The notes beneath the pieces are model-generated. The model saw nothing but the letters and a program-made list of their open reading frames with translations. It searched no databases and was not told the DNA's origin. Source: a virus. Taken from it: a DNA stretch of 29,875 bases. Location: the IMG/VR virus record IMGVR_UViG_3300017951_000076, positions 1 through 29,875 of that record. One strand, written 5' to 3'. This document shows, one piece after another, positions 1-19,654 of this stretch (the stretch's first letter is position 1; every line of letters starts with the position of its first letter). The position numbers and the translations under genes are program-made.

Positions 1-121
1 CTTGGTCAGGTTTAATTTGGCCTAAAAGTTGTTCAGAATTTCTTTTAATAGAGGTAAGTTGATTCTTTACATTTGCTGAATCAACATGGCCGTCCTCTCT
101 AAATTGCTTGAATGATTTCAT
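1..121 (-). CDS. Partial protein with capsid-targeting-like N-terminus
   Basis: An open frame starts with ATG at 121 and runs off the left edge, giving 40 visible residues with no stop. Its start overlaps the TAA stop of the gene before it in a TAATG arrangement, so translation is probably coupled. The first residues, MKSFKQFREDG, resemble the leaders of the neighbouring genes and the T4 internal-protein leader MKTYQEFIAE. No (I/L)xE cleavage site is obvious soon after it. The visible part is polar and shows no domain. A virion-internal role is inferred from the leader and its position in the late block. The function of the rest cannot be judged from this window. Confidence 0.7.
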   Translation of the reverse strand, partial: MKSFKQFREDGHVDSANVKNQLTSIKRNSEQLLGQIKPDQ

Positions 122-429
122 TATGAGTCTATATCTATTTCGCCGTCATACTTACCTTGTTTAATATGTCCTTCATATTTCATAAGACCTATGTATGCAT
201 CATTGATATTTTCCCAAACATATGTGACTGTATCTACTGTATTAGGATATTGTAAGTCGGCGTGTAGTTTGTCTGCTTGTTCTAAAGCTTTTTTGATTTT
301 TGCAATTTGTTTAAGTTCTTTATTTCTATCAAATTGCTTACCATCATGTTTACTTTTTCTCTGATAATTACCATTGTATCCTAGCTTTTCTTGTAGGCCT
401 TCTTTTCTCATTTCCTTAAATGTTTTCAT
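121..429 (-). CDS. Small basic protein with capsid-targeting-like leader
   Basis: This 102-residue protein is rich in Lys, Asn and Asp and has no membrane segment. It begins MKTFKEMRKEGLQE, which resembles the T4 internal-protein leader, and LQE could be a gp21-type cleavage site. The middle is predicted helical and the C-terminus is acidic. The gene lies 5 bp after the 319-residue gene and its TAA stop overlaps the ATG of the next gene. The start at 429 is preceded by a weak purine-rich ribosome site. I do not recognise a family. A small internal head protein is the best contextual guess, but the function is unknown. Confidence 0.7.
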   Translation of the reverse strand: MKTFKEMRKEGLQEKLGYNGNYQRKSKHDGKQFDRNKELKQIAKIKKALEQADKLHADLQYPNTVDTVTYVWENINDAYIGLMKYEGHIKQGKYDGEIDIDS

Positions 430-434
430 TTTTC

Positions 435-1394
435 TTATTCCATAGCCTTAATTGCTGCCAAAGCATCTTTTTTAGCCTTAGCATCTTGTTTGGCATTAAG
501 TTTTTCTACTGCCTTTCTGATAAGTTCTAGTCTCTTAGCCTTTTCTTTTGGACTTAGAGCTTCTTCGACTTCTTCTTTGAAATTCAATCCAAGTCTTTTC
601 TCATGTTTTTTGAGAAGTTGTGAAATCGTCATGTTTTTATTTGATGAATCATCAAAATCATCAGCGAGTAAATCATCTGATAGATATTTTGCATCTAACT
701 CTCTACCTATCTTCTGTCCTTCAGGTGAACCAACTTTTACATTTTGTTTACCTTTGAGGAGTTTTTGCATTCCTGCAATTGCTTTCTTTTTCTTTGCAGG
801 ATTGTTATCAAAGATACCAATCGCCATTGTGCCTTCTGATAATTCTCTATCTAAAAAATCATCAAATTCATCAGGGTCATCTGTTTTAATTTCTCCATTA
901 TCAAATGCCCACTTATATAAATCATCTTCAACATTTTTTGGCAAGTCTTTATTTCTTTTTACAAAATTATCAATATGCCTTTTATGTTTTCTTATAAGAG
1001 CTTTCCATTTAGGGTCACGAATACCTTCTTGTACTGATTCGTTGGCCTGTCTGAGTGCATCTTTTACGATAGGATCATCTCCTAATCCCCGTTTCATTGC
1101 TTCGATTTTCTTATAAGCTCCAGTCATGTTACCACTCATGTCAAGAGCAATCTTAACGGCTGCAGCAACTAGAGACGCTGGGAACTTACTTCTGTATTTT
1201 TCTCTAAGTTGTTTAAATTTCATAGCTTCCTCTGTTTTAAATCCATGTTTCTTTTTTAAGATGTTCATTGCTGTAGCCATCTTAACTGATTTCCAATCCT
1301 TACCATATAAATCTTTAAATGCCTTATCTGATAGTGATTGTGCAATCTTTTCTAATTCTTTTTCCCTCGCAGGAGTTAATACAAAATCGCTCAT
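435..1394 (-). CDS. Lysine-rich helical protein of the late block, unknown function
   Basis: This 319-residue protein is highly charged, rich in Lys, Asp and Glu, and looks mainly helical. It has no signal peptide or membrane segment. The C-terminal 60 residues are a Lys/Ala/Glu-rich helix, probably a coiled coil. Unlike its neighbours it starts MSDFVLTPAREKEL and lacks the MKSF-type leader. An internal stretch near residues 275-285 (NFKEEVEEAL) is only vaguely similar to that leader. The ATG overlaps the upstream stop as ATGA (1391-1394), so it should be translationally coupled. It could be a structural or core protein. I recognise no catalytic motif, and the assignment to virion assembly rests on context alone. 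Confidence 0.75.
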   Translation of the reverse strand: MSDFVLTPAREKELEKIAQSLSDKAFKDLYGKDWKSVKMATAMNILKKKHGFKTEEAMKFKQLREKYRSKFPASLVAAAVKIALDMSGNMTGAYKKIEAMKRGLGDDPIVKDALRQANESVQEGIRDPKWKALIRKHKRHIDNFVKRNKDLPKNVEDDLYKWAFDNGEIKTDDPDEFDDFLDRELSEGTMAIGIFDNNPAKKKKAIAGMQKLLKGKQNVKVGSPEGQKIGRELDAKYLSDDLLADDFDDSSNKNMTISQLLKKHEKRLGLNFKEEVEEALSPKEKAKRLELIRKAVEKLNAKQDAKAKKDALAAIKAME

Positions 1395-2755
1395 ACCTTT
1401 TTGGCCAGATCAGCATCTGCAGTAGACCATGTCTTACCTTTAGTGATAAACGAATTTACTCTAGCAAGGCCCCACTGCACTGGTGTTGTACCGGGTCTAT
1501 GTCCGGTTCTCCAGGCAGCGACACCTCTGTCAAAAACTTGTTTTAATATACCATATGCAATTCCACTCTTGTCAGCCTTCTTCATAAGTGCTGCCTTAGT
1601 GTCTTGTTCTGTTACCATATAGTCTTCAAATGTGATGTATTCTGCCATTTCGCCATACATCTTTTTAAATTTCTTTGTATATTGTGATGGTTTTGTTTCT
1701 GCTGATTTATCTCCTGGTGCAGGTTTGTATGCTCTAGGATCATCATCGTCCATCTTTGCTTGTTTTGCAAACTGCGCGTGTCTTTTAGATGCAGTTGATT
1801 TTGAAAGTTTACCGTCTGGTGAATCGTCTTTGTAATAATTGCTTTTCTTTCTTTTCTGTGCGACGGTCATTTTTTCTCTGACTTGTTGACCTGGTGTTTC
1901 TTTCTTCCATCTATCCGTGAGTTTCTTTGTTCCCCATTCACCAGCCATAGTTTCTACTGATTCAAGCCAAACTCTTTTTCTTTCATCATTTACCTTAATC
2001 ATAAGATAATTAGGGCCTCGGGTAATTACCTTACCTACTTCTTTTGTTTCTTTAATGCGAACTGTATCTCCAACATTATATAGATTTCCTTCTATATATT
2101 CTTCCCTTGTTTCGGATACTGTAGGTAATTCTATATGCTGTCTGAACGATTCTTTCTTTAATCCCATTCCTTTACGAACAGCGTAATATAAATCTTGTGG
2201 GTTATAATTTTTAGGTAATCCTTGTGCAAACTTTTGAAGTGATCCCTCTGCAGCAGCCAATCTCATTTTAGAAGCACTCATGCCTGATACATCATCTTTA
2301 TCGGGGTCTCTATCCCCAGCTGATACAACTCGTATGGCTCCTTCAAATTGGTAGAAACCATGTCTTGCATCTACGCCGTTATATTTGTTTAATAGGATAT
2401 CAAATTCTTTTATTCTATCAGATCCTACAACCATTGTGACTTTGGTAAATCCTTGGTCATATAATTTTACACATATATCCAATGCGTTACGAACATCAGG
2501 ATCAGCCATAACATTTCGTGCATGTTTAGGGAACATCTTACGAATGAATTTAATTTTTTCTTTGAATTGTAATGGATTCTTTTTAGGGTCGACTGACTTA
2601 GATGAATATATACGATAAACGCCCGAACGAGCTACTTTCTTTAATGTATCGAATAATTTTTCGTGCCCAATAGTGGGTGGATTAAAACGGCCAAACACAA
2701 AAGAAACTTCTTTTGTTGATTCCGTTACATATGTACTGAATGACTTGAGTTGCAT
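1391..2755 (-). CDS. NMN-adenylyltransferase-like protein with DUF5824-like C-terminus and repeated head-targeting-like segments
   Basis: This 454-residue protein has three visible parts. Residues 16-170 look like an HxGH-superfamily nucleotidylyltransferase: FGRFNPPTIGH at 21-31 is the nucleotide-binding motif (TxGH variant) and SASKMR at 160-165 is the usual C-terminal ISTxxR-type motif. NMN or another nucleotidyl acceptor is possible. Residues 223-268 look like a small beta-barrel (KOW/SH3-like). Residues 385-454, with KSGIAYG, AAWRTGHRPGTT and QWGLARVNSF, match my memory of DUF5824 in marine phages. The leader MQLKSFSTYVTE and internal segments at 202-215 (SFRQH...VSE) and 375-383 (TFEDYMVTE) resemble T4 capsid-targeting leaders with cleavage sites. 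A GAGG ribosome site precedes the ATG. The adenylyltransferase call is good; the packaging role is inference. Confidence 0.85.
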   Translation of the reverse strand: MQLKSFSTYVTESTKEVSFVFGRFNPPTIGHEKLFDTLKKVARSGVYRIYSSKSVDPKKNPLQFKEKIKFIRKMFPKHARNVMADPDVRNALDICVKLYDQGFTKVTMVVGSDRIKEFDILLNKYNGVDARHGFYQFEGAIRVVSAGDRDPDKDDVSGMSASKMRLAAAEGSLQKFAQGLPKNYNPQDLYYAVRKGMGLKKESFRQHIELPTVSETREEYIEGNLYNVGDTVRIKETKEVGKVITRGPNYLMIKVNDERKRVWLESVETMAGEWGTKKLTDRWKKETPGQQVREKMTVAQKRKKSNYYKDDSPDGKLSKSTASKRHAQFAKQAKMDDDDPRAYKPAPGDKSAETKPSQYTKKFKKMYGEMAEYITFEDYMVTEQDTKAALMKKADKSGIAYGILKQVFDRGVAAWRTGHRPGTTPVQWGLARVNSFITKGKTWSTADADLAKKV

Positions 2756-2774
2756 TTATATCCTCGGTATCCCA

Positions 2775-4019
2775 TTAGCCTGGATTGTCCCAGCCTTTTA
2801 TAATATCTTTGCTGAAATTATTGGCAGAAAATTCCATACGGTCTACCAATTTAACAGCACCACCTTCCATTCGATCTATGGCAACAAAACCTTCGGGGTT
2901 GGTTACTCTAAATCCGGATGTTGTTTTTACAAACGTACCAATTTTGCTTAGTTTGTTTAGTTTATTTATAATAATTAATTTACTATTTATCACAAAATTC
3001 TGTAAATCAAAGATTAATTGTAGGTTTTTTAAGTTGGATTTATTAAAAAACTTTAATAATTCATCTCGTTTTGAAATCTGTACATCTTTACCTTTCTGTG
3101 ATGAACGCTTATCTATTTCTTTTGCATATCTATCTGTTACAAATTGGATTAAACCTTTGGCATGTTTAGCTGTATTGGAGACGCGTTCTCCTTTACGTAC
3201 CATAGAGTTATTATAGATATTAATAATTAAATTTAATTCCTTATTTGACTCCAGCTCTTTAAGTGTACTACTTGCAATCTTTTGAAATATCTTACCAGCG
3301 GCAGATAAATTATTATTAAGTATTTGAGTTTCTTTTGCAGTAAGAGTTGCTGTACCAGATAAATCAGGTAATGCAGCATCTACCATCCAAACATCTTTTG
3401 ACTTTTTAAGTTTTGGTACGATTTCTTTACCAAACTCTGCTTTCATTGTTTCAAATGTTGCTCCACTGTATGTTGTATGCCAGACAATTCCGATCTTAGC
3501 AGAAGTAATTTCTTTAGCAAGAGGGATATCAGCAGGAATAGCATAAACGATGGTATTAGGGTGAAAAGTAATATGATTAATTCCATTAATTTTTTCCTTT
3601 TTCAAGTCAGCACTGTCAAACATAAAGTCGCCTTGAATGACTCCTTTAATGCCTAAATCTTTAAGTGAATCAAAAGCCAAGATTAGTTTCTTTTGTAAAT
3701 CTCCAGATGTATCTGCTTTAATATCATCATGTGATTTATATACCTTAGGATTCTTTGCAAATATACCTTTCTTTGCCACAAAGAATTTTCCATCGGTTGG
3801 ATCCTCTCCAGCAAATACAGCAGGAGCTCCATCCCATTTAACGGTAATATCTACTGGAGCCTTTGAACTACCAGATAACATATCACGCAAAGACCTAAGA
3901 GCAAGAATAGCTTGTCGCGCACCTTTAACACCACCATCAAGAATTAAATCCTCTATGTGAGTCATATGAGTATTCTTTGCGGCTTCTGTTAATGGTGTAT
4001 ATGTTTTAAATGATCTCAT
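2775..4019 (-). CDS. KxDG nucleotidyltransferase / ligase-like protein (DUF6267-like) with capsid-targeting-like leader
   Basis: This 414-residue protein carries the signature order of covalent nucleotidyltransferases (ATP-dependent DNA/RNA ligases and capping enzymes). Motif I is KWDG at 61-64, where the Lys would be adenylated. A motif III-like strand is GVIQGDFMF at 126-134, a motif IV-like EGFVAI is at 376-381, and a motif V-like VKLVDR is at 389-394. Motif spacing is unusual, with a long helical insert between III and IV, so activity is not assured. I recall this family as DUF6267 of marine T4-like phages. The N-terminus MRSFKTYTPLTE then AA looks like a head-targeting leader ending in a gp21 cleavage site. 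The ATG overlaps the upstream stop as ATGA. The substrate is unknown. Confidence 0.85.
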   Translation of the reverse strand: MRSFKTYTPLTEAAKNTHMTHIEDLILDGGVKGARQAILALRSLRDMLSGSSKAPVDITVKWDGAPAVFAGEDPTDGKFFVAKKGIFAKNPKVYKSHDDIKADTSGDLQKKLILAFDSLKDLGIKGVIQGDFMFDSADLKKEKINGINHITFHPNTIVYAIPADIPLAKEITSAKIGIVWHTTYSGATFETMKAEFGKEIVPKLKKSKDVWMVDAALPDLSGTATLTAKETQILNNNLSAAGKIFQKIASSTLKELESNKELNLIINIYNNSMVRKGERVSNTAKHAKGLIQFVTDRYAKEIDKRSSQKGKDVQISKRDELLKFFNKSNLKNLQLIFDLQNFVINSKLIIINKLNKLSKIGTFVKTTSGFRVTNPEGFVAIDRMEGGAVKLVDRMEFSANNFSKDIIKGWDNPG

Positions 4020-5470
4020 TTGTATAATGCCTTAAATTCGTTTGTCATTGTTGCCATAAATGATGGTGCTGATCTGAAGTTACCCTTATATCTGAGTGTA
4101 ATATGACATGCTGGAATGTTTCCAATTAATAAATCAAAGTGTAACATTGCTGCTCCTGCACCTGGTTCATATGCTTGAACTTTATTTGGAGTAGGTCTTA
4201 TTGATGTTCCACCTTGGGAAAATAAATCATCAAGTTTTGTTGTGACGGTATTAATATCCTTAAACTCTCCCTTTTCTACAACTACACCTTTTGATGGGCC
4301 GTAATCACCCACACCTGTAACCAGAGCAAAATCAAAGTTGACTTTCTGTAAATCTTTTAAATCTGCTTTAAATATTAATTGAACTAATTGGTTAGCAATC
4401 ATGTCTTTGTTTTTAATAATAATATCAGACATCTGCTTAAATAAAGATTTATTTGAACCTTTTAATTCTGAATTAATAATACTATTATCTATTCTTTGAA
4501 TATAGTTTTTCCAATTCTTTGTATTAGGCCTTTTCTTTTTCATATCAAGTTTTAATTCAGGCGAAAGTGCACCCATTTTTTTAGCCTTGGCAAGAACTCT
4601 TAAATAAAACATACCAGCTCTTTTATCGAGTTCTGCCATCATTTTATTGAATTTTTTATCCTTAAATAATGTAGCAAATGATTTGTTAATTAATGTTGGA
4701 TCGGTTTCTGTAAGCCTTTTCTTTTTCTTTAATGATACACCAAGGAATTTATTTCCTTTTTTAACAATAAAGTCAGAGGAATTAAAGTCAGCCATACCAT
4801 GTTTAGTAATCTGAAACTGTTTTACATCATCGTCCCAAGATTGACCTGTAAGATAAACCTTATCTGCACTACCATAACCTGCAGCATGAACAGTATTTGC
4901 GGCTGAGATTGCCTGTGCTAGATTTGAATAATCACCACCCATAGAAGCCACCATACCTGGTGTATAACCTTTTGCTTTTCCTAATTGTGCCTTACAATCT
5001 TCTATTAAGGCATCCATTTCATCTGAATTAGTTACCTTTGGTATTTTTGGGAAAATACAAAGAAGGGCTGTCATTAATTCATTTGGATCATCACCAGCAG
5101 CACTTCTTTTACCATTTGGTCTTAAATTACAATAGACATATCTGTCCATGTCTTTGTATTTAACAGCAAAGTCTTTTTCTACTCTATCTGGTGCGGGTTT
5201 TACTCTTTCGAGTTCTGGGTGTTGGTCAATGATTTTATTGGCCAATTGAGAATATTTTGAACGTTCTTTGTCGTCCATGAGAATTGATATACCAACCTTT
5301 TTGGAGTTGGACTTACCTGATCGTTTATCAAGTTCAATCTCTGTATTAATGGTTCCAATACTGTCATCAATATCGGAAATAAGTTGGAGAGCAAATGCGT
5401 CATCATTCTCATCGTACTTTAGGTTAGCTAAGTCCTCGAATATGTTAGAATGTTTTATAAATGATTGCAT
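4016..5470 (-). CDS. PD-(D/E)XK nuclease-like protein with capsid-targeting-like leader
   Basis: I place the start at the ATG at 5470 (484 residues) rather than the in-frame ATG at 5482. The upstream ATG forms part of a good GGAGAA ribosome site, 6-7 nt before the chosen one. The resulting N-terminus, MQSFIKHSNIFED, matches the leaders of the next genes, and IFE is a possible gp21-type cleavage site. The middle has a pattern typical of restriction-type nucleases: NELMTALL (Glu131), then SSDFIV (Asp233) and VSLKK (Lys248), an E...D...SxK core. The family identity is by motif only and the metal site is unproven. The gene is first behind the dual promoter at 5492-5519 and is coupled to the ligase-like gene. 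Confidence 0.8.
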   Translation of the reverse strand: MQSFIKHSNIFEDLANLKYDENDDAFALQLISDIDDSIGTINTEIELDKRSGKSNSKKVGISILMDDKERSKYSQLANKIIDQHPELERVKPAPDRVEKDFAVKYKDMDRYVYCNLRPNGKRSAAGDDPNELMTALLCIFPKIPKVTNSDEMDALIEDCKAQLGKAKGYTPGMVASMGGDYSNLAQAISAANTVHAAGYGSADKVYLTGQSWDDDVKQFQITKHGMADFNSSDFIVKKGNKFLGVSLKKKKRLTETDPTLINKSFATLFKDKKFNKMMAELDKRAGMFYLRVLAKAKKMGALSPELKLDMKKKRPNTKNWKNYIQRIDNSIINSELKGSNKSLFKQMSDIIIKNKDMIANQLVQLIFKADLKDLQKVNFDFALVTGVGDYGPSKGVVVEKGEFKDINTVTTKLDDLFSQGGTSIRPTPNKVQAYEPGAGAAMLHFDLLIGNIPACHITLRYKGNFRSAPSFMATMTNEFKALYK

Positions 5471-5491
5471 ATAATTCTCCATTTAATAGGT

Positions 5492-5519
5492 ATTATAACA
5501 CTATTTATAAAAATGTCAA
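5492..5519 (-). promoter_or_regulatory. Sigma70-like promoter before the internal-protein block
   Basis: On the minus strand TTGACA (5519-5514) is followed after 16 bp by TATAAT (5497-5492), with a TG one base before the -10 box. It belongs to the same family as nine other promoters in the window. It lies 20-50 bp before the ATG at 5470. A late-type box sits inside its spacer. Confidence 0.75.
5502..5509 (-). promoter_or_regulatory. T4-type late promoter TATAAATA nested in an early promoter
   Basis: The octamer TATAAATA, the T4 gp55-type late promoter box, reads on the minus strand about 30 nt before the start at 5470. This leaves room for a short leader with the GGAGAA site. It fits late expression of virion-associated proteins. 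It lies wholly inside the spacer of the sigma70-like promoter. Confidence 0.7.
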
Positions 5520-7544: not shown

Positions 7545-7747
7545 TATTGTGGTCCCTCCGGCCAGGCCTCAAACCTTTGAAAAACTAATTTATCTCTTAG
7601 CCTATCCATATCTGCAAAAGCAAGAAATTCATCAAATGAATCTGCCATTGGTGTAATACCTAGTTCTTTAACTACGGCCATTGAGGACATTTCACTGACA
7701 TCATCAGCAATCCTTTCGAGGATTTGTGTGTTGATTTCGTTCGACAT
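7544..7747 (-). CDS. 67-residue hypothetical protein, first gene of the ligase operon
   Basis: This small acidic protein (MSNEINTQILERIADDVSEM) is largely helical in appearance, has no membrane segment and ends in a Trp/Pro-rich tail (EAWPEGPQ). An AAGGAG ribosome site lies at good spacing before the ATG, and the consensus-type promoter at 7777-7805 lies just upstream. It is coupled to the Cys-cluster gene by TAATG. I do not recognise a family. Its promoter-proximal position suggests high early or middle expression, perhaps a small regulator or host-interaction protein. Confidence 0.7.
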   Translation of the reverse strand: MSNEINTQILERIADDVSEMSSMAVVKELGITPMADSFDEFLAFADMDRLRDKLVFQRFEAWPEGPQ

Positions 7748-7776
7748 TTTATACTCCTTATTTAATTTATAGGTAT

Positions 7777-7805
7777 ATTATATCAAAGAAAACCCGATTT
7801 GTCAA
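7777..7805 (-). promoter_or_regulatory. Consensus sigma70-like promoter for the ligase operon
   Basis: TTGACA (7805-7800), 17 bp, then TATAAT (7782-7777), with TGA before the -10 box and an A-rich tract with GTG before the -35 box. It is a perfect match to both consensus hexamers, 30 nt before the ATG at 7747. Confidence 0.9.
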
Positions 7806-7827
7806 CACTTTTTTGAAAAAAGTTAAA

Positions 7828-8487
7828 TTAAATTACATCATCTAAGGGAAATATCTTATAAATGACATCAGCACAGGCCTTTGCTATCTCCATGTGCTCT
7901 TTTTGTGTACCATTTTCAGCCCTTAGTTGAATATAATGTACCCAAGAACGAAGTGTACCATTTACATACATACGGCTCATGGTAAGGCCTTCTGGTAATA
8001 CTGCCCTTGCCTGTTCTTTGGCAATTCCAGCTTCGATGGCCCATTCATATGCTCGTTTACATCTTTCAATAATTACTTCTTGGTATGATTCCCAGATATA
8101 GTTTATTGAATCTTCGTATTGTAATTCGATACTATTCTGTCGGTTCTTTGGGTCTTGTAATCTAGCTTCTCTTGTGACGAAACTGAGATCGGTCGTGGGA
8201 TCCGCATATCGTTGACTAAATTCTTGGAAAGAAAATGATCTGTGGCGTAATATCTGTCTTGCAATATCCCTTGTGGTTTCTATTTCAAGACAAACACTTA
8301 CCATTTCAAGCGGTGACCAATGTTTGTTTTTGATTAGATATTTGACTAGCTTCTCAGCCGTTTTTTCGTTCTTTTGATTTTCGGGATTTGATACCCGTGC
8401 ACAAAAGGCAACCAGCTGAAGAATATCGTCTGGTAATTCTGCACCTTCAGCTGGTTGAGTGTATGATATAAGTTTCACACTAAACAT
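7828..8487 (-). CDS. thyX: FAD-dependent thymidylate synthase
   Basis: This 219-residue enzyme makes dTMP from dUMP using FAD, NADPH and methylene-tetrahydrofolate. The ThyX signature RHR-X7-S is present as RHRSFSFQEFSQR at 81-93. Conserved surrounding elements include HWSPLE (56-61) and the Arg/Ser-rich C-terminal VNGTLRSWVHYIQLR. The length is normal for the family. It is the last gene of the run that contains uvsX and gp41 and ends just before the ligase-operon promoter. An AAGAGA site precedes the ATG. It supplies thymidylate for phage DNA; nothing in the sequence suggests a changed base specificity, although the window also encodes a DNA-base-type glycosyltransferase. Confidence 0.95.
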   Translation of the reverse strand: MFSVKLISYTQPAEGAELPDDILQLVAFCARVSNPENQKNEKTAEKLVKYLIKNKHWSPLEMVSVCLEIETTRDIARQILRHRSFSFQEFSQRYADPTTDLSFVTREARLQDPKNRQNSIELQYEDSINYIWESYQEVIIERCKRAYEWAIEAGIAKEQARAVLPEGLTMSRMYVNGTLRSWVHYIQLRAENGTQKEHMEIAKACADVIYKIFPLDDVI

Positions 8488-10085: not shown

Positions 10086-10395
10086 TTCCTATCTGTGCCT
10101 CATTATTTTCTAGGGAGTCCGAAATTATAAACTGTAGGACTGCTCCTAAATAATTGTTAAAATCCTCGTCCTTCTGTAGATATTCATAATCATGTTCTGC
10201 TGGGTCTTGGATACTGTAAGTGAAAGATAATTTTGCTGTATCATTAGCTTTATCTTCCTTAATACTTACCTTACCATAAACCAGAATAACATTCTTGAAT
10301 TTACCAGTGAGGAGTTTGACACCATAAAAATCTGCCAACTCCCCGCTTTCGTTTTCTACAAGAGTGTAATCTTTATTGGTTATATTATATACCAT
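10033..10395 (-). CDS. 120-residue hypothetical protein between uvsX and gp41
   Basis: This protein is mostly beta-rich to about residue 70 (NVILVYGKVSIKED, KLSFTYSIQDP), then helical (FNNYLGAVLQFIISDSLE), with a Ser/Thr-rich tail that overlaps the gp41 start. It begins 1 bp after the uvsX stop with the ATG in a TTTATT-AT context and a GAGGAATAAA ribosome site that includes the end of uvsX. It has no membrane segment. A similar small gene sits at this place in marine T4-like genomes, as far as I recall. A role with the helicase or recombinase is plausible, but no family is recognised. Confidence 0.8.
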   Translation of the reverse strand: MVYNITNKDYTLVENESGELADFYGVKLLTGKFKNVILVYGKVSIKEDKANDTAKLSFTYSIQDPAEHDYEYLQKDEDFNNYLGAVLQFIISDSLENNEAQIGIGHNESTTNTHTESSAQ

Positions 10396-10396
10396 T

Positions 10397-11452
10397 TTAT
10401 TCCTCTTGTAAAGTGCTTTCTATATCAACTTCAAGTAAAGGTTTGTGTCCAATCTGATAATAAGACTTGATGAATTTTTTGAAATCTGTTTCATTAAAAA
10501 TAGGATCCCAGAACTCTTTTGTAAGAGTATCCTTTTCTCTGACTTTAGGATCCAAGATTTCACCTGTTGCATGGTCTACCCTTGCGTACCAACCCATAGA
10601 AGGTTTGGTTACATAACCACCAGCAAGTCCTACTTCAAGTAAGCCACCGTATGGTGATATACCGCCTTCCCATGTTACTGATACAGGAATTTTGGATTTT
10701 TCTTTTACAAACCTAGATTTTTCCACATTAATCACAAAGTTGTAACCTTGGACTTCTGCACCTTTCTTCTGTTGTTGCCTACCGATAATCCAAATGTTAT
10801 CAGCTGAGTAATATATACCCGTTCCGCCTGATACAATTGATTTAGGGAATAATCCAATTTCTTGGTAAGTATGATTGACGGCGAGAAGTGGAATGTTCTT
10901 CATTGTAAGATAAGGAGTGACCATTCGGAACAATCCCTTCAACGCCTTGGCTCTTGACATATCAGCCACTGACTTTTCATTAAGAGCATCTTCTAGTTCT
11001 TTCTTCGATGCAAGGTTACCAATAGAATCAATGACAATTACAACTTTATCTCCTCTCTCGATTTCATCAAGTTGATTAACCAAATCAAATTTAAGTTGTT
11101 CTACATCTGTAATTGGAGTATGTAATACTCTAGATGTATCGATTCCAAATGCCTCAAAGTATGACTGAGGTGATCCAAATTCTGAATCATAAAATAACAT
11201 TACAGCATCTTCGTGCTCTTTCATGTACGCCGCTGCCATAAGTAGGGCGAATGATGTTTTAAAGTGTTTACTTGGTCCTGCAAGAACAGTAAGACCAGAT
11301 GTAAGTCCACCATCAATGTCGCCTGATAGAGCAACATTTATCATGGGTACGGTTGTGGTAACCATATCCTTTTCTGTAAAGAACACAGATTTTTCCAACA
11401 CTTCTGTTGCTTTAATCTTGGAGTTCTTTTTGAGTTTGTCCATTACTGACAT
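10397..11452 (-). CDS. uvsX: UvsX RecA-like recombinase
   Basis: This 351-residue strand-exchange protein would form filaments on single-stranded DNA and support recombination-dependent replication. Walker A is GPSKHFKTS at 59-67 (the GxxxxxKT form of phage UvsX). The Walker B strand KVVIVIDSIGNL and the loop PLLAVNHTYQ follow in the expected order. The acidic C-terminus (VDIESTLQEE) resembles the RecA/UvsX regulatory tail. The length is close to T4 UvsX (391). A GGAGAAAATT ribosome site is fused to the TAG stop of the preceding 54-residue gene. The order bS21-small gene-uvsX-gp41 puts recombination and helicase genes in one unit from the promoter at 11913-11941. Confidence 0.95.
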   Translation of the reverse strand: MSVMDKLKKNSKIKATEVLEKSVFFTEKDMVTTTVPMINVALSGDIDGGLTSGLTVLAGPSKHFKTSFALLMAAAYMKEHEDAVMLFYDSEFGSPQSYFEAFGIDTSRVLHTPITDVEQLKFDLVNQLDEIERGDKVVIVIDSIGNLASKKELEDALNEKSVADMSRAKALKGLFRMVTPYLTMKNIPLLAVNHTYQEIGLFPKSIVSGGTGIYYSADNIWIIGRQQQKKGAEVQGYNFVINVEKSRFVKEKSKIPVSVTWEGGISPYGGLLEVGLAGGYVTKPSMGWYARVDHATGEILDPKVREKDTLTKEFWDPIFNETDFKKFIKSYYQIGHKPLLEVDIESTLQEE

Positions 11453-11912: not shown

Positions 11913-11941
11913 ATTATATCACCTTTTCATCAGAAAGTAAA
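11913..11941 (-). promoter_or_regulatory. Extended -10 promoter for bS21-uvsX-gp41
   Basis: TTTACT (11941-11936), 17 bp, TATAAT (11918-11913) with TGA directly before the -10 box. The -35 box is four of six and is preceded by AAAACAC, as in the promoter at 17215. It overlaps the last codons of the cytidylyltransferase gene. Confidence 0.75.
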
Positions 11942-12360
11942 GTGTTTTCTGTAACTCTTTTTCGTAAATCACTTGTTGAAAATCTGTGGTCTCGTTTGTT
12001 AAAATAAAACTCTATATCTCTTTGGCGACATAGGTCTTTACCTGTAAAGTCTTTGTCTCGATATTCTTCTCCCATAATTTTTACATCTATGTGATACATT
12101 GAAAGTATATCAAGAAGGTCGTCTTCGGTATTGTATACGAGAATTTCATCAACATATTTAATGGCCGCAAGTTGGGCTTGTCTTTCTACAATTGATTGGA
12201 CTGGTTTGTTCTTTTCGGGTCTGTCTACTGATGGGTCATTTTGTAATGCACAAATAAGGTAATCACATGCAGTCTTTGCTTCTCTTAACATAGCAACATG
12301 ACCTGCATGTAGCAGATCAAATGTTGATGCCGTGATTCCTACTTTTATTGACTTGTCCAT
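11914..12360 (-). CDS. Glycerol-3-phosphate cytidylyltransferase-like enzyme (TagD/RfaE-C type)
   Basis: This 148-residue nucleotidyltransferase has the HxGH motif in GITASTFDLLHAGHVAML (8-25) and the second motif RFSTSDLR near 126-133. This is the size and layout of single-domain CTP:glycerol-3-phosphate or ADP/CDP-sugar transferases. It would activate a small phosphorylated alcohol or sugar with a nucleotide. The true substrate cannot be read from the sequence. It overlaps the GIY-YIG gene by 16 bp, suggesting coupled translation. With the epimerase, dehydrogenase and glycosyltransferase upstream it fits a surface-sugar or modification pathway. Confidence 0.85.
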   Translation of the reverse strand: MDKSIKVGITASTFDLLHAGHVAMLREAKTACDYLICALQNDPSVDRPEKNKPVQSIVERQAQLAAIKYVDEILVYNTEDDLLDILSMYHIDVKIMGEEYRDKDFTGKDLCRQRDIEFYFNKRDHRFSTSDLRKRVTENTLLSDEKVI

Positions 12361-13040: not shown

Positions 13041-13069
13041 ATTATATCACATTTTATTCAGGTTGTAAA
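13041..13069 (-). promoter_or_regulatory. Extended -10 promoter before the GIY-YIG gene
   Basis: TTTACA (13069-13064), 17 bp, TATAAT (13046-13041) with TGA before the -10 box. It lies 25 nt before the ATG at 13016, and its -35 region is within the last codons of the nuclease gene upstream. Confidence 0.85.
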
Positions 13070-13476
13070 CCTTTTTCTGCAAGTTTTTGCCTATTTTTCA
13101 TATGATTCTGTTCAACTAGATCTTTATTTTCTCCGTGATAGGCAACAGCATGTCCCTCTTCGATCATTTTCTGGTTTACATTTACCTCAACATCACCATC
13201 AAACATGACAAATAGTTCCCCTAAAATTCTACCGAATTTGCCTTTATCGTGTGATACCAATCGCACTTCGCCTAAACTTAGAATATCTTTTAGATATTGC
13301 TTTGATAATTTACCATAAAATTTTTCAGTTAAATCTCTTGTTCTTGATTCAGGTGTATCGATGCCCATAAGCCTAATTCTTTGCTTCTTATAGGTCATAC
13401 CGAAACCCAAATCAATATCTGCATCAACGGTATCGCCGTCAACTACTCTCGTTACATTAATTTTATACTTATACAC
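13054..13476 (-). CDS. Staphylococcal-nuclease-like (thermonuclease) enzyme
   Basis: I choose the GTG at 13476 (140 residues, MYKYKINVTRVVDGDT), since GAGG lies 6 nt before it and the domain starts there. A longer in-frame ATG exists at 13554. The SNase/OB-fold motifs are present: VVDGDTVDADIDLG, RIRLMGIDTPESR (metal- and phosphate-binding Asp, Glu, Arg) and GKFGRILGEL with the second catalytic Arg. No signal peptide is visible with the chosen start, so it probably acts in the cytoplasm. It would cut DNA or RNA with Ca2+, perhaps in host nucleic-acid breakdown. It overlaps the Zn-finger gene by 8 bp and shares its late promoter. Confidence 0.88.
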   Translation of the reverse strand: MYKYKINVTRVVDGDTVDADIDLGFGMTYKKQRIRLMGIDTPESRTRDLTEKFYGKLSKQYLKDILSLGEVRLVSHDKGKFGRILGELFVMFDGDVEVNVNQKMIEEGHAVAYHGENKDLVEQNHMKNRQKLAEKGLQPE

Positions 13477-13645
13477 AATTTTCCTCGTATTGATGTTTAA
13501 ATTCTGATGTGGTGTCAATTCCTGCAGTATAACACCCTCTGCAGCATTGACCACAACCTTCTACATACCCAAATCTATAATCGATATGAGTATCTTTTGT
13601 ATATTCGGTTTCACAACCGCATATTACACATTTATCTTTTTCCAT
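13469..13645 (-). CDS. 58-residue Cys-rich zinc-binding protein
   Basis: This small protein reads MEKDKCVICGCETEYTKDTH, then GYVEGCGQCCRGC and a hydrophilic tail ending ENCV. CVICGC and CGQCCRGC supply two or more Cys pairs, typical of a treble-clef or zinc-ribbon fold. The HIDYRFGYVEG(x)GQ part resembles small Cys proteins of other marine phages. The start lies directly behind the late promoter box at 13656-13663 with AAGGATATATT as the ribosome site. The stop overlaps the GTG of the nuclease gene, so the pair is likely coupled. The role is unknown; regulation or nucleic-acid binding is plausible. Confidence 0.8.
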   Translation of the reverse strand: MEKDKCVICGCETEYTKDTHIDYRFGYVEGCGQCCRGCYTAGIDTTSEFKHQYEENCV

Positions 13646-18400: not shown

Positions 18401-18726
18401 TACTCAATCACTTCATCAATTTCAAAATCGTCCATTTGGTCTTCTCCTACATATCGCATAAGAGAGTTTGCCTTTTTATCAAGCGCAGGATACCAAAGTG
18501 CTTTGGTTTTCTTTGTAACAGTCTGGCCAATTTTTTGTGCAAACTCAAGAAGATCCTCTTCACATCTGAATCGGACATTGATCATCTTCCAAGATTCATC
18601 AGAAGGCTGATTAAACTCAGGCATATCGTCCCACTCGTAAGGAGTTTGCTCTTCTTCTTGACCAGCCATAACAAACAAGTTTTCTGGCTGATAATTTAGG
18701 GTTTTGTTATTACGCTGTCCCGCCAT
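18400..18726 (-). CDS. 108-residue protein of a widespread phage family, unknown function
   Basis: The N-terminal 45 residues are low-complexity and acidic (EEEQTPYEWDDMPE). The C-terminal domain reads WKMINVRFRCEEDLLEFAQKIGQ then KKTKALWYPA, a combination I have seen in many phage proteins of unknown function, sometimes next to modification enzymes. There is no membrane segment. GGAGAAGAAA precedes the ATG, which overlaps the end of the TET-associated-type glycosyltransferase by 17 bp, and its stop is in a TAATG overlap with the next gene. A role as partner of the glycosyltransferase is a guess from context. Confidence 0.75.
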   Translation of the reverse strand: MAGQRNNKTLNYQPENLFVMAGQEEEQTPYEWDDMPEFNQPSDESWKMINVRFRCEEDLLEFAQKIGQTVTKKTKALWYPALDKKANSLMRYVGEDQMDDFEIDEVIE

Positions 18727-19654
18727 TTTCTTCTCCTTTTAATTTTACTAATTTAAGTCCATAGTTATTAGGACCTTTAGGTATATTTAGTCCTGCTTTT
18801 AACTTTGGTTTTTCAGTTCGTTGGAAATCATGATAGTTAATATGATGATGCCAACGGCCCCATTTTTGAGTTATCTGAACACAGTCTGGGTGTTGTGCAT
18901 ATAGTGATTCTGCAAATTCCCTTCTATGGTCAAACTCTTCTCCACTTCGTGTCTGTACATTACCAGGGTTGTCAATGTTATAAACTGCCTTGGTATTACC
19001 ACCTTTCATTGTCATACTAGCAATTTTACCACATAGAAATGCATTGAACAAGTACGTATGGTATCCAGCTTTCATGACTCGTAATGATAAGTCTGTATCT
19101 TCATTGTATTTACCACGCCAGTATAAGTCTGGGAATATATCGTTTGATAAACAGATGCAACTATAAATCCTTGTATTCCAATAATAAGGTGGGCGCTTGG
19201 TACTTGCTGGTGCAAAGAAGGCATAGTTCATACCAAACATTTTAAGGCCTTCATACCTATCAGCAAAGTCTTCACATACCCTAAAACAAGTTCCGTTAAG
19301 AACCTTTGTTTTCTTGTTATTGTGTAACCTATACATGTGTTGGATATTATCATCTAGTATCCAGTGTCTTTCATGTCCTTCTTGTTTTGAGTGCCACCAG
19401 ACAAAGTTTCTAGCAGGAATTGATCCACCATATAAACCTGTAACATCACAAGGTTTTGCCCATAAAGGATTTTCCCTAAAATCTGGTGGTAATACCAGAA
19501 TGTTATCAGGATCAATGACAGCAGAATAATCACTATATTCAGAACCCTCAATGACTATCTTGTATGGCACATTAATATTCTCTAAGGTCTTTACTGTCAG
19601 TCTCGTATCAGCACGACCTTTGGAAATAATGTATATTGGATATTTCGGTTGCAT
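18710..19654 (-). CDS. TET-associated-type glycosyltransferase (DNA base glycosylation candidate)
   Basis: This 314-residue protein starts PKYPIYIISKGRADTR. SKGR at 11-14 and the later GSIPARNFVW (77-86) and HWILDDNI (97-104) are the hallmarks of the TAGT family, a GT-A-fold group described next to TET/JBP enzymes in phages. Members are predicted to glycosylate hydroxymethylated DNA pyrimidines. DDN at 101-103 would bind metal and donor. C-terminal GKYNEDTDLSLRVMKAGY is the second conserved metal/substrate region. No TET or base hydroxylase is in this window. The ATG overlaps the stop of the 91-residue gene (TAATG). The family call is good from motif memory; the DNA role is inferred. Confidence 0.82.
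   Translation of the reverse strand: MQPKYPIYIISKGRADTRLTVKTLENINVPYKIVIEGSEYSDYSAVIDPDNILVLPPDFRENPLWAKPCDVTGLYGGSIPARNFVWWHSKQEGHERHWILDDNIQHMYRLHNNKKTKVLNGTCFRVCEDFADRYEGLKMFGMNYAFFAPASTKRPPYYWNTRIYSCICLSNDIFPDLYWRGKYNEDTDLSLRVMKAGYHTYLFNAFLCGKIASMTMKGGNTKAVYNIDNPGNVQTRSGEEFDHRREFAESLYAQHPDCVQITQKWGRWHHHINYHDFQRTEKPKLKAGLNIPKGPNNYGLKLVKLKGEENGGTA

Follow-up and report, generated by a model that had tools for sequence, protein, structure and literature searches.

T4-like capsid-targeting leaders on a cassette of putative head-packaged enzymes in a marine myophage fragment

The question raised by one end of the virus fragment IMGVR_UViG_3300017951_000076 (IMG/VR; 29,875 bases, referred to here as the window) is why a set of different proteins should begin with much the same short segment. 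Six genes, P1 to P6, lie head to tail on the minus strand at positions 2–5470, and five of their products carry a leader resembling the capsid-targeting sequence (CTS) of bacteriophage T4. A preliminary description had read these leaders as marks of enzymes carried in the capsid and injected with the DNA; all five were indeed in frame where it had placed them. With a probability of roughly 77%, the best explanation of the whole is that the cassette encodes prohead-targeted cargo with a detachable leader. Head packaging via a T4-type leader is well supported by the register of the leader, its [ILVF]xE end, a protease in relatives, a conserved late promoter and the mass spectrometry published for virions with tagged homologues; injection would follow by analogy with T4, and any function of the cargo is speculative.

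The T4 internal proteins IPII and IPIII start with MKTYQEFIAE, and IPI starts with MKTFKEF and has a leader ending in TITE. Targeting by the T4 CTS depends on its residues 4 and 7, processing on residues 8 and 10, and propeptides comprise 10–19 residues (PMC9026906). The marine leaders have the register of IPII and IPIII, F/Y4-F/Y7-E10. Positions 4 and 7 are F and Y in P2 (MRSFKTYTPLTE, 3984–4019, with A after the putative cut), F and F in P6 (MKSFKQFRED, 92–121), F and M in P5 (MKTFKEMRKEGLQE, 388–429), and F and H in P1 (MQSFIKHSNIFE, 5435–5470); P3 (MQLKSFSTYVTE, 2720–2755, with S after the putative cut) has the same spacing, shifted by two residues. Leader length (10–19), the aromatic residues at positions 4 and 7, the hydrophobic-x-E end, the unrelated bodies behind a common leader and the encoded gp21-type protease are all shared with IPI, IPII and IPIII. 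However, the internal proteins of T4, each present at about 360 copies, are small and basic and act as inhibitors or have no known role, whereas the bodies in the marine cassette are larger and enzyme-like, and their cleavage and injection are predicted. Alt of T4, a head-borne enzyme ejected into the host, resembles the proposed cargo in this respect, but it is an ADP-ribosyltransferase, and no homology of Alt to P1–P6 was seen.

Leaders were scored with a register-true profile trained on IPI, IPII and IPIII and on virion-detected cyanophage proteins, the window and its close relatives being left out. It replaced a loose regular expression, M.{1,5}[FY]..[FYILMV].{1,3}E, which was dropped as unrelated to virion detection in cyanophage S-CREM2 (5/14, p=0.32). 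Profile p-values were 6e-4 for P3 and for P5, 0.011 for P6, 0.015 for P2 and 0.086 for P1, corresponding to ranks 1, 2, 3, 5 and 6 among the approximately 42 genes of the window. That five of the top six N-termini should fall within a six-gene cassette has a hypergeometric p of 4e-5, and in G001 and G003, both whole contigs, no gene outside the cassette is among the top four of the entire genome. Related loci were gathered from IMG/VR using P3, P1 and cyanophage homologues; 264 of the 3355 unique proteins in them pass a leader cut of p=0.001, as compared to 3.4 expected. The 264 proteins form 29 clusters with unrelated bodies, and the latter is the safer figure because cassette genes served as queries for the loci and related phages recur among them.

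Alignment across homologues, proposed as a check in the preliminary description, bore the leader out. It is kept in 37/37 P2 homologues, in 29/31 P3 homologues (as F..Y/F..E, with the ends VTE, IVE or LSE) and in most P1 homologues, and is thereby near-universal in the lineage of the window while its residues vary. DNA ligase (0/7), DnaB helicase (0/18) and ThyX (0/12) from the same loci, used as controls, gave no leader match. Pelagibacter phage HTVC008M showed no excess of leaders by the profile, and any leaders there are shorter or shifted; its DUF6267 protein starts with MYNDLLVED followed by KNTH. Leader-like N-termini were also found elsewhere. UvsW of phage C48C1 (contig L001, 19419–20918) starts with MKDYSHFMVEA and scores strongly, a feature shared by no relative's UvsW, and a RimK-like ATP-grasp ligase with the leader MINFNGYITEE is encoded outside the cassette (L162, 15690–17114; G001, 123215–124639).

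The ends of the leaders suggest how they may be removed. The [ILVF]xE end equals the predicted propeptide ends of the capsid protein gp23 of the same phages (ISE/T, LTE/A, LNE/T and INE/T). In the P2 family, where the leaders MKKFTSYLAES, MRSLKGYLSEA, MRRLSNYTPLHEA and MLSFKRQLIAEA all abut the conserved KNTHMTHIEDL, an [ILVMF]xE triplet lies no more than six residues before the domain in all 37 complete homologues (shuffles: mean 5.4, maximum 12), and the family has F or L at position 4 in 37/38 and Y at position 7 in 26/38. A gp21-like protease, for which the preliminary description had suggested a search, is present as Peptidase_S77 in ten of twelve related records; the window, a fragment that carries no head genes, yielded no such protease.

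The late promoter assigned to the cassette is real, judging by its conservation. The octamer TATAAATA (5502–5509, minus strand) precedes the P1 start by 32 nt, and 21/22 homologous loci have the exact octamer no more than 80 nt upstream of P1, mostly at –26 to –50. Since there are only nine such octamers on the minus strand of the 29.9-kb window and 21 of the 22 loci have one at this site, chance placement is unlikely. The octamer predicts late expression of the cassette, as for CTS-bearing head proteins of the T4 type. A perfect sigma-70 promoter (TTGACA-16-TATAAT) overlaps the octamer in the window, yet it is not kept in homologues and was discarded as a candidate.

Are proteins with such leaders found in virions? 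The preliminary description, which knew of no account of these families, was wrong as regards P3, as cyanophage homologues were reported from virions in 2010 and in 2022–2023. Virions of S-SM1 contained the P3 homologue as T4-GC190 (PMC3037559), those of S-SZBM1 as _140 (PMC9146016) and those of S-CREM2 as gp154 (PMC10665884), and it was also reported for S-SCSM1 and S-CBWM1, the latter a non-T4 cyanomyovirus (PMC9602691). The three of these homologues whose sequences were compared start with MKKFSAFLNEA, MRFRQFIIEA and MKNFSSFLTEA, the same type of leader as in P3. For S-CREM2, which was left out of the training set for its own test, the six top leader scores belong to gp154, gp14 (a kinase), gp6 (an S-adenosylmethionine (SAM) hydrolase), gp13, gp136 and a 55-aa open reading frame; the five named proteins are all in the published virion list. 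Among the papers found on the cyanophage cytidylyltransferase, none ties its location in the virion to a leader.

It might be argued that the cytidylyltransferase in these virions is a co-purified contaminant and that the leader has no packaging role, an explanation raised by the authors of PMC10665884 themselves and in keeping with the small number of peptides, only 2–3, by which S-SZBM1 and S-CREM2 virions revealed the enzyme. However, the protein was detected independently in five phages, its leaderless DUF6267 neighbour was not, and leader score tracks virion detection in S-CREM2 (Fisher p 0.008 at one cut and 0.002 at another), so that contamination appears improbable. A further alternative is that the leader forms a helix by which the N-terminus docks to a different partner, such as the tail, the membrane or the replisome, and resembles the T4 CTS by convergence. 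The motif is short, and leader-like stretches also occur within P3 and at some C-termini; but the register fits the two residues T4 needs for targeting, the end fits the gp23 cleavage site, virions contain tagged proteins, and the five tagged virion proteins of S-CREM2 with the highest scores all lack a tail annotation. We regard docking as the most improbable of the explanations considered.

Several of the virion-detected, non-structural genes of S-CREM2 lie together (gp6–gp15; L081, 3837–13331), and several of them have T4-type leaders. The cluster, which includes the SAM hydrolase, the kinase, a 78-aa protein and the Cas9-like gp12, looks like a cargo island, perhaps with an anti-restriction role. 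Although gp12 is in virions and has LRFASFMAEA at residues 17–26, it was left uncounted, its start being uncertain.

The tag appears to be detachable. In cyanophage loci the cytidylyltransferase is tagged in 73/73 non-redundant N-termini, whereas the adjacent DUF6267 protein, homologous to P2, is tagged in 0/73; in its commonest forms the domain begins at the second or third codon. In the lineage of the window the same domain is tagged throughout. Neither _141 of S-SZBM1 nor gp87 of S-CREM2, both DUF6267 proteins that lack the tag, appears in the published virion lists. Conservation of an enzyme with loss of its leader, which the preliminary description would have taken as refutation, was thus observed for P1 and P2 in cyanophages; because the untagged DUF6267 is undetected in virions too, we read this loss as detachment of a tag rather than as refutation. 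The tagged and untagged neighbours of cyanophages, altered in the lineage of the window, constitute a natural experiment.

Some observations weigh against packaging as proposed here. The P1 leader of the window taken alone is not significant, and the leaders of P5 and P6 (MKxFKxLR) follow the T4 form no further than position 7. A perfect leader, MKSFKSFLSES, is borne by S-SZBM1_191 (105 aa), but this protein is missing from a virion list which, with 30 proteins, is the shallower one, and virion lists also hold untagged hypothetical proteins. Tagged homologues have been detected in virions of cyanophages only, the lineage carrying the cassette being known from its genes, and we are aware of no tagged protein from a marine phage whose N-terminus has been described as cleaved. 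Carry-over in CsCl purification is named as possible by the S-CREM2 authors (PMC10665884).

What would such leaders load? P2 (2775–4019, 414 aa) is a DUF6267 (PF19782) protein, described previously as a KxDG nucleotidyltransferase. This held: the motifs K61xDG, QGD131, E376GFV and K390 correspond in pattern to motifs I, III, IV and V of ligases, and KWDGAP, QGD, EG[FY]VAI and K[LI]VD[RK] are each present in 32/32 homologues. Structural alignments of a P2 model (predicted local distance difference test score, pLDDT, of 73) place K61 on the catalytic lysines of REL1, T4 Rnl2, Trl1 and NgrRnl, which we take to be K87, K35 and K148 in the first three; in NgrRnl it is K170. The Z-scores are 6.2 for REL1, 6.0 for Rnl2, 6.0 for Trl1 and 5.0 for NgrRnl, all below 8, and helical decoys score higher. 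P2 differs from these four enzymes in having no sequence-level similarity to them and in a long insert of helices that separates motif III from motif IV. Foldseek comparison with the PDB gave nothing below E 0.6, and comparison with viral models returned chiefly other DUF6267 and DUF6267-cytidylyltransferase proteins. P2 thus looks like a good RNA ligase candidate of the covalent nucleotidyltransferase superfamily; with Z at only 5–6, it is to be taken as a candidate, not as proven. Homologues of P2 and P3 match phrog_455 (764 positions) in tandem, which suggests that the two are fused in some phages.

P3 (1391–2755, 454 aa) combines a CTP_transf_like domain with a C-terminal DUF5824. The motifs GRFNPPTxGH and MSASxxR are each present in 22/22 homologues, and the Pfam score against PF01467 is 23.1 bits (cut-off 21), so that P3 is predicted to be an HxGH nucleotidylyltransferase. 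Its earlier designation as similar to nicotinamide mononucleotide (NMN) adenylyltransferase (NMNAT) stands as regards the HxGH class but not as regards NMN specificity: the best match to curated NMNAT models has E 0.014 and 14.6 bits against a cut-off of 397, and none of the models reaches its cut-off. A profile search of P3 against the PDB gave no match. Elsewhere DUF5824 stands alone with a leader of its own (MITFKKYLEE in C48C1, MKDFKAFFNEA in G001), and a leader-like stretch precedes it within P3 (YITFEDYMVTE, 1607–1639, minus strand; p=0.21 in the window, with 5/20 linkers of homologues reaching p≤0.05). This stretch looks homologous to the free-standing DUF5824 leader, which is suggestive only. 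P3 homologues that have no DUF5824 (L053, 4426–5379; L072, 5795–6772) show leader-like C-terminal ends, LSFRDFKDEL and VDFKQFMLKDK. A second, small cytidylyltransferase-like protein of the window, MDKSIKVGITASTFDLLHAGHVAM (11914–12360, minus strand), has no leader, and its gene lies near those of an epimerase, a UDP-glucose dehydrogenase and a glycosyltransferase.

P1 (4016–5470) belongs to family phrog_3060 and has 484 aa from its preferred start; an in-frame ATG lies four codons upstream, at 5482, but the ATG at 5470 is preferred because it alone is preceded by GGAG. The leaders of its homologues are much clearer (MRGFKTFIPED, MLGFKQFIPED); the family has F at position 4 in 23/28 and the ends IPE, LNE or MTE. 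In structural comparison, residues 23–124 align with GLD-2, TUT7, CutA and cGAS at Z 9.0–9.8 over about 95 residues, and the canonical GS..DxD catalytic residues were not seen in the alignment. The N-terminal domain is accordingly a putative nucleotidyltransferase fold of the Pol-beta type. In the C-terminal half SD237..SLK252 is invariant, with SSD/ASD..GxSLKKK in 27/27 homologues. This motif resembles a variant PD-(D/E)XK nuclease site; family and fold searches gave no match, and the earlier label "nuclease-like" stands unproven. Sequence searches of P1, P2 and P3 against solved structures gave nothing useful. Two P1 homologues of about 720 aa (L134, 3314–5479; L135, 1859–4021) have a PAP2 phosphatase between the leader MKSFLKKINEE and the P1 domain.

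These signatures bear on the possibility that the leaders mark building blocks of the prohead core and that the enzymes are incidental passengers with a late function inside the cell. IPIII of T4 influences head assembly (PMC9026906), and P4 to P6 are small and show no enzyme signatures. However, scaffolding needs no active site, and the catalytic motifs of P2 and P3 are invariant; moreover, a SAM hydrolase, a kinase and a nucleotidylyltransferase are among the tagged proteins of S-CREM2. A scaffolding role is therefore quite unlikely.

If the cassette encodes prohead-targeted cargo, its genes would be transcribed late from the TATAAATA promoter. By analogy with T4, the leader, with F, Y or L at CTS positions 4 and 7, would bind the prohead core, and the enzyme would be built into the head, where the gp21-type protease may cut after hydrophobic-x-E, at a site matching the gp23 propeptide ends, and free it. 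The mature enzyme would then be carried in the virion, as published mass spectrometry of the tagged cyanophage homologues suggests, and may enter the host along with the DNA, as in T4. As the tag is detachable, the identity of the cargo would vary by lineage: P1, P2, P3, P5 and P6 are tagged here, and in cyanophages, among these families, only the P3 homologue. Head ejection proteins of giant phages such as SPN3US, which have propeptides, are likewise described as packaged and processed by a prohead protease (PMC7411985, PMC10052503); they belong to a different phage group and are likened to the cassette by description.

The likeliest job of the cargo, though speculative, might be to act chemically on RNA ends or nucleotide cofactors as soon as the phage enters, for instance in response to defences that cut tRNA or deplete nicotinamide adenine dinucleotide (NAD). 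T4 polynucleotide kinase (Pnkp) and RNA ligase 1 repair RNAs later in infection. By analogy, we tentatively envisage a virion-borne RNA repair kit of a P-loop kinase, the RNA-ligase-like P2 and the nucleotidyltransferases P1 and P3, which at entry would mend RNAs of host or phage that tRNA-targeting defences had cut. The ligase motifs of P2 and its fold register with four RNA ligases are consistent with this, as are the nucleotidyltransferase-fold domain of P1, the PAP2 phosphatase fused to P1 in two contigs and the P-loop kinase, which many relatives encode within the cassette and which has a leader and somewhat resembles polynucleotide kinase. But the P2 fold scores and model confidence are modest, and the kinase, which also fits zeta toxin and adenylate kinase, was not seen in the window or in the overlapping contig L007. 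A wider proposal, which we consider doubtful, is that the leader is a general, evolvable loading tag for lineage-specific head kits acting on defence before phage gene expression, the cassette being an RNA repair kit; across lineages the kits would draw on RNA ligase, RimK-like ligase, nucleotidylyltransferases, SAM hydrolase, P-loop kinase and protein kinase. Alternatively, P3 might act as an NMN adenylyltransferase and restore NAD against NAD-depleting defences. Its invariant GRFNPPTxGH and MSASxxR motifs, weak similarity to NMNAT models and the annotation of cyanophage homologues as NMNAT in print (PMC9602691) point this way; however, with NMNAT models at E 0.01–0.1, none near its cut-off, no PDB match with the profile, and a fold family that includes many other nucleotidylyltransferases, NAD restoration is rather unlikely.

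The CTS cargo of T4, and the use of the CTS by T4-like phages to load various proteins, were already known (PMC9026906). That T4 review was also the only open-access item found that joins capsid targeting and cyanophages, and an earlier mention elsewhere is possible. What appears new is that a leader is linked to the virion enzymes of marine phages, that it is gained and lost as a module, and that the cargo includes an RNA-ligase-like protein. If correct, a ten-residue tag would reveal from sequence which proteins a T4-like ocean phage loads into its head, the recurrence of nucleotidylyltransferases and kinases in cyanophage virions would come under a testable rule, and pre-made counter-defence enzymes could be listed across some of the most abundant phages of the sea.

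P4 (435–1394, 319 aa, start MSDFVLTPAR) has neither an N-terminal leader nor a family match, but contains MKFKQLREKY (1194–1223), which is the N-terminus of free-standing P4 homologues (MKFKELREKYRSKYPAS). This stretch and the leaders of P5 and P6 form a looser and less certain class B, MKxFKx[LIMF]R, which starts like IPI. A search of phage records gave one weak match for P4 and no match for P5 (121–429, 102 aa). P6 (2–121) is cut by the window end after the first 40 of its 140 aa; its full length was obtained from L007, which is 99.9% identical to the window over 5570 bases. The cassette is lengthened in L007 (5450–11012) by genes including a weak BTLCP-like match and a class 3 lipase (10248–11012), and another class-B leader, MKDFFKLRESARLEEK, is encoded at 7725–8189.

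The phage itself is, judging by gene set and best relatives, a T4-like marine myophage of Kyanoviridae type. The window encodes UvsX, a DnaB-type helicase, polymerase, clamp loader, gp45, RegA, an ATP-dependent ligase and a ThyX-like protein, and its nearest relatives are phage C48C1, the Methylophilales phages Melnitz, Pelagibacter phage HTVC008M and cyanophages. Melnitz, isolated together with its host, has P2 and P3 homologues that rank among the closest. T4 IPI shields glycosylated modified-cytosine DNA from type IV restriction. A TET-associated glycosyltransferase (TAGT; PF20691, E 1e-36) is encoded at 18710–19654 on the minus strand, by which the phage probably glycosylates modified cytosine, an end T4 reaches by another route; tagged cargo is the more interesting in this phage because TAGT is present and IPI protects such DNA. 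A staphylococcal-nuclease-like protein (PF00565, E 2.5e-16) is encoded at 13054–13554 on the same strand.

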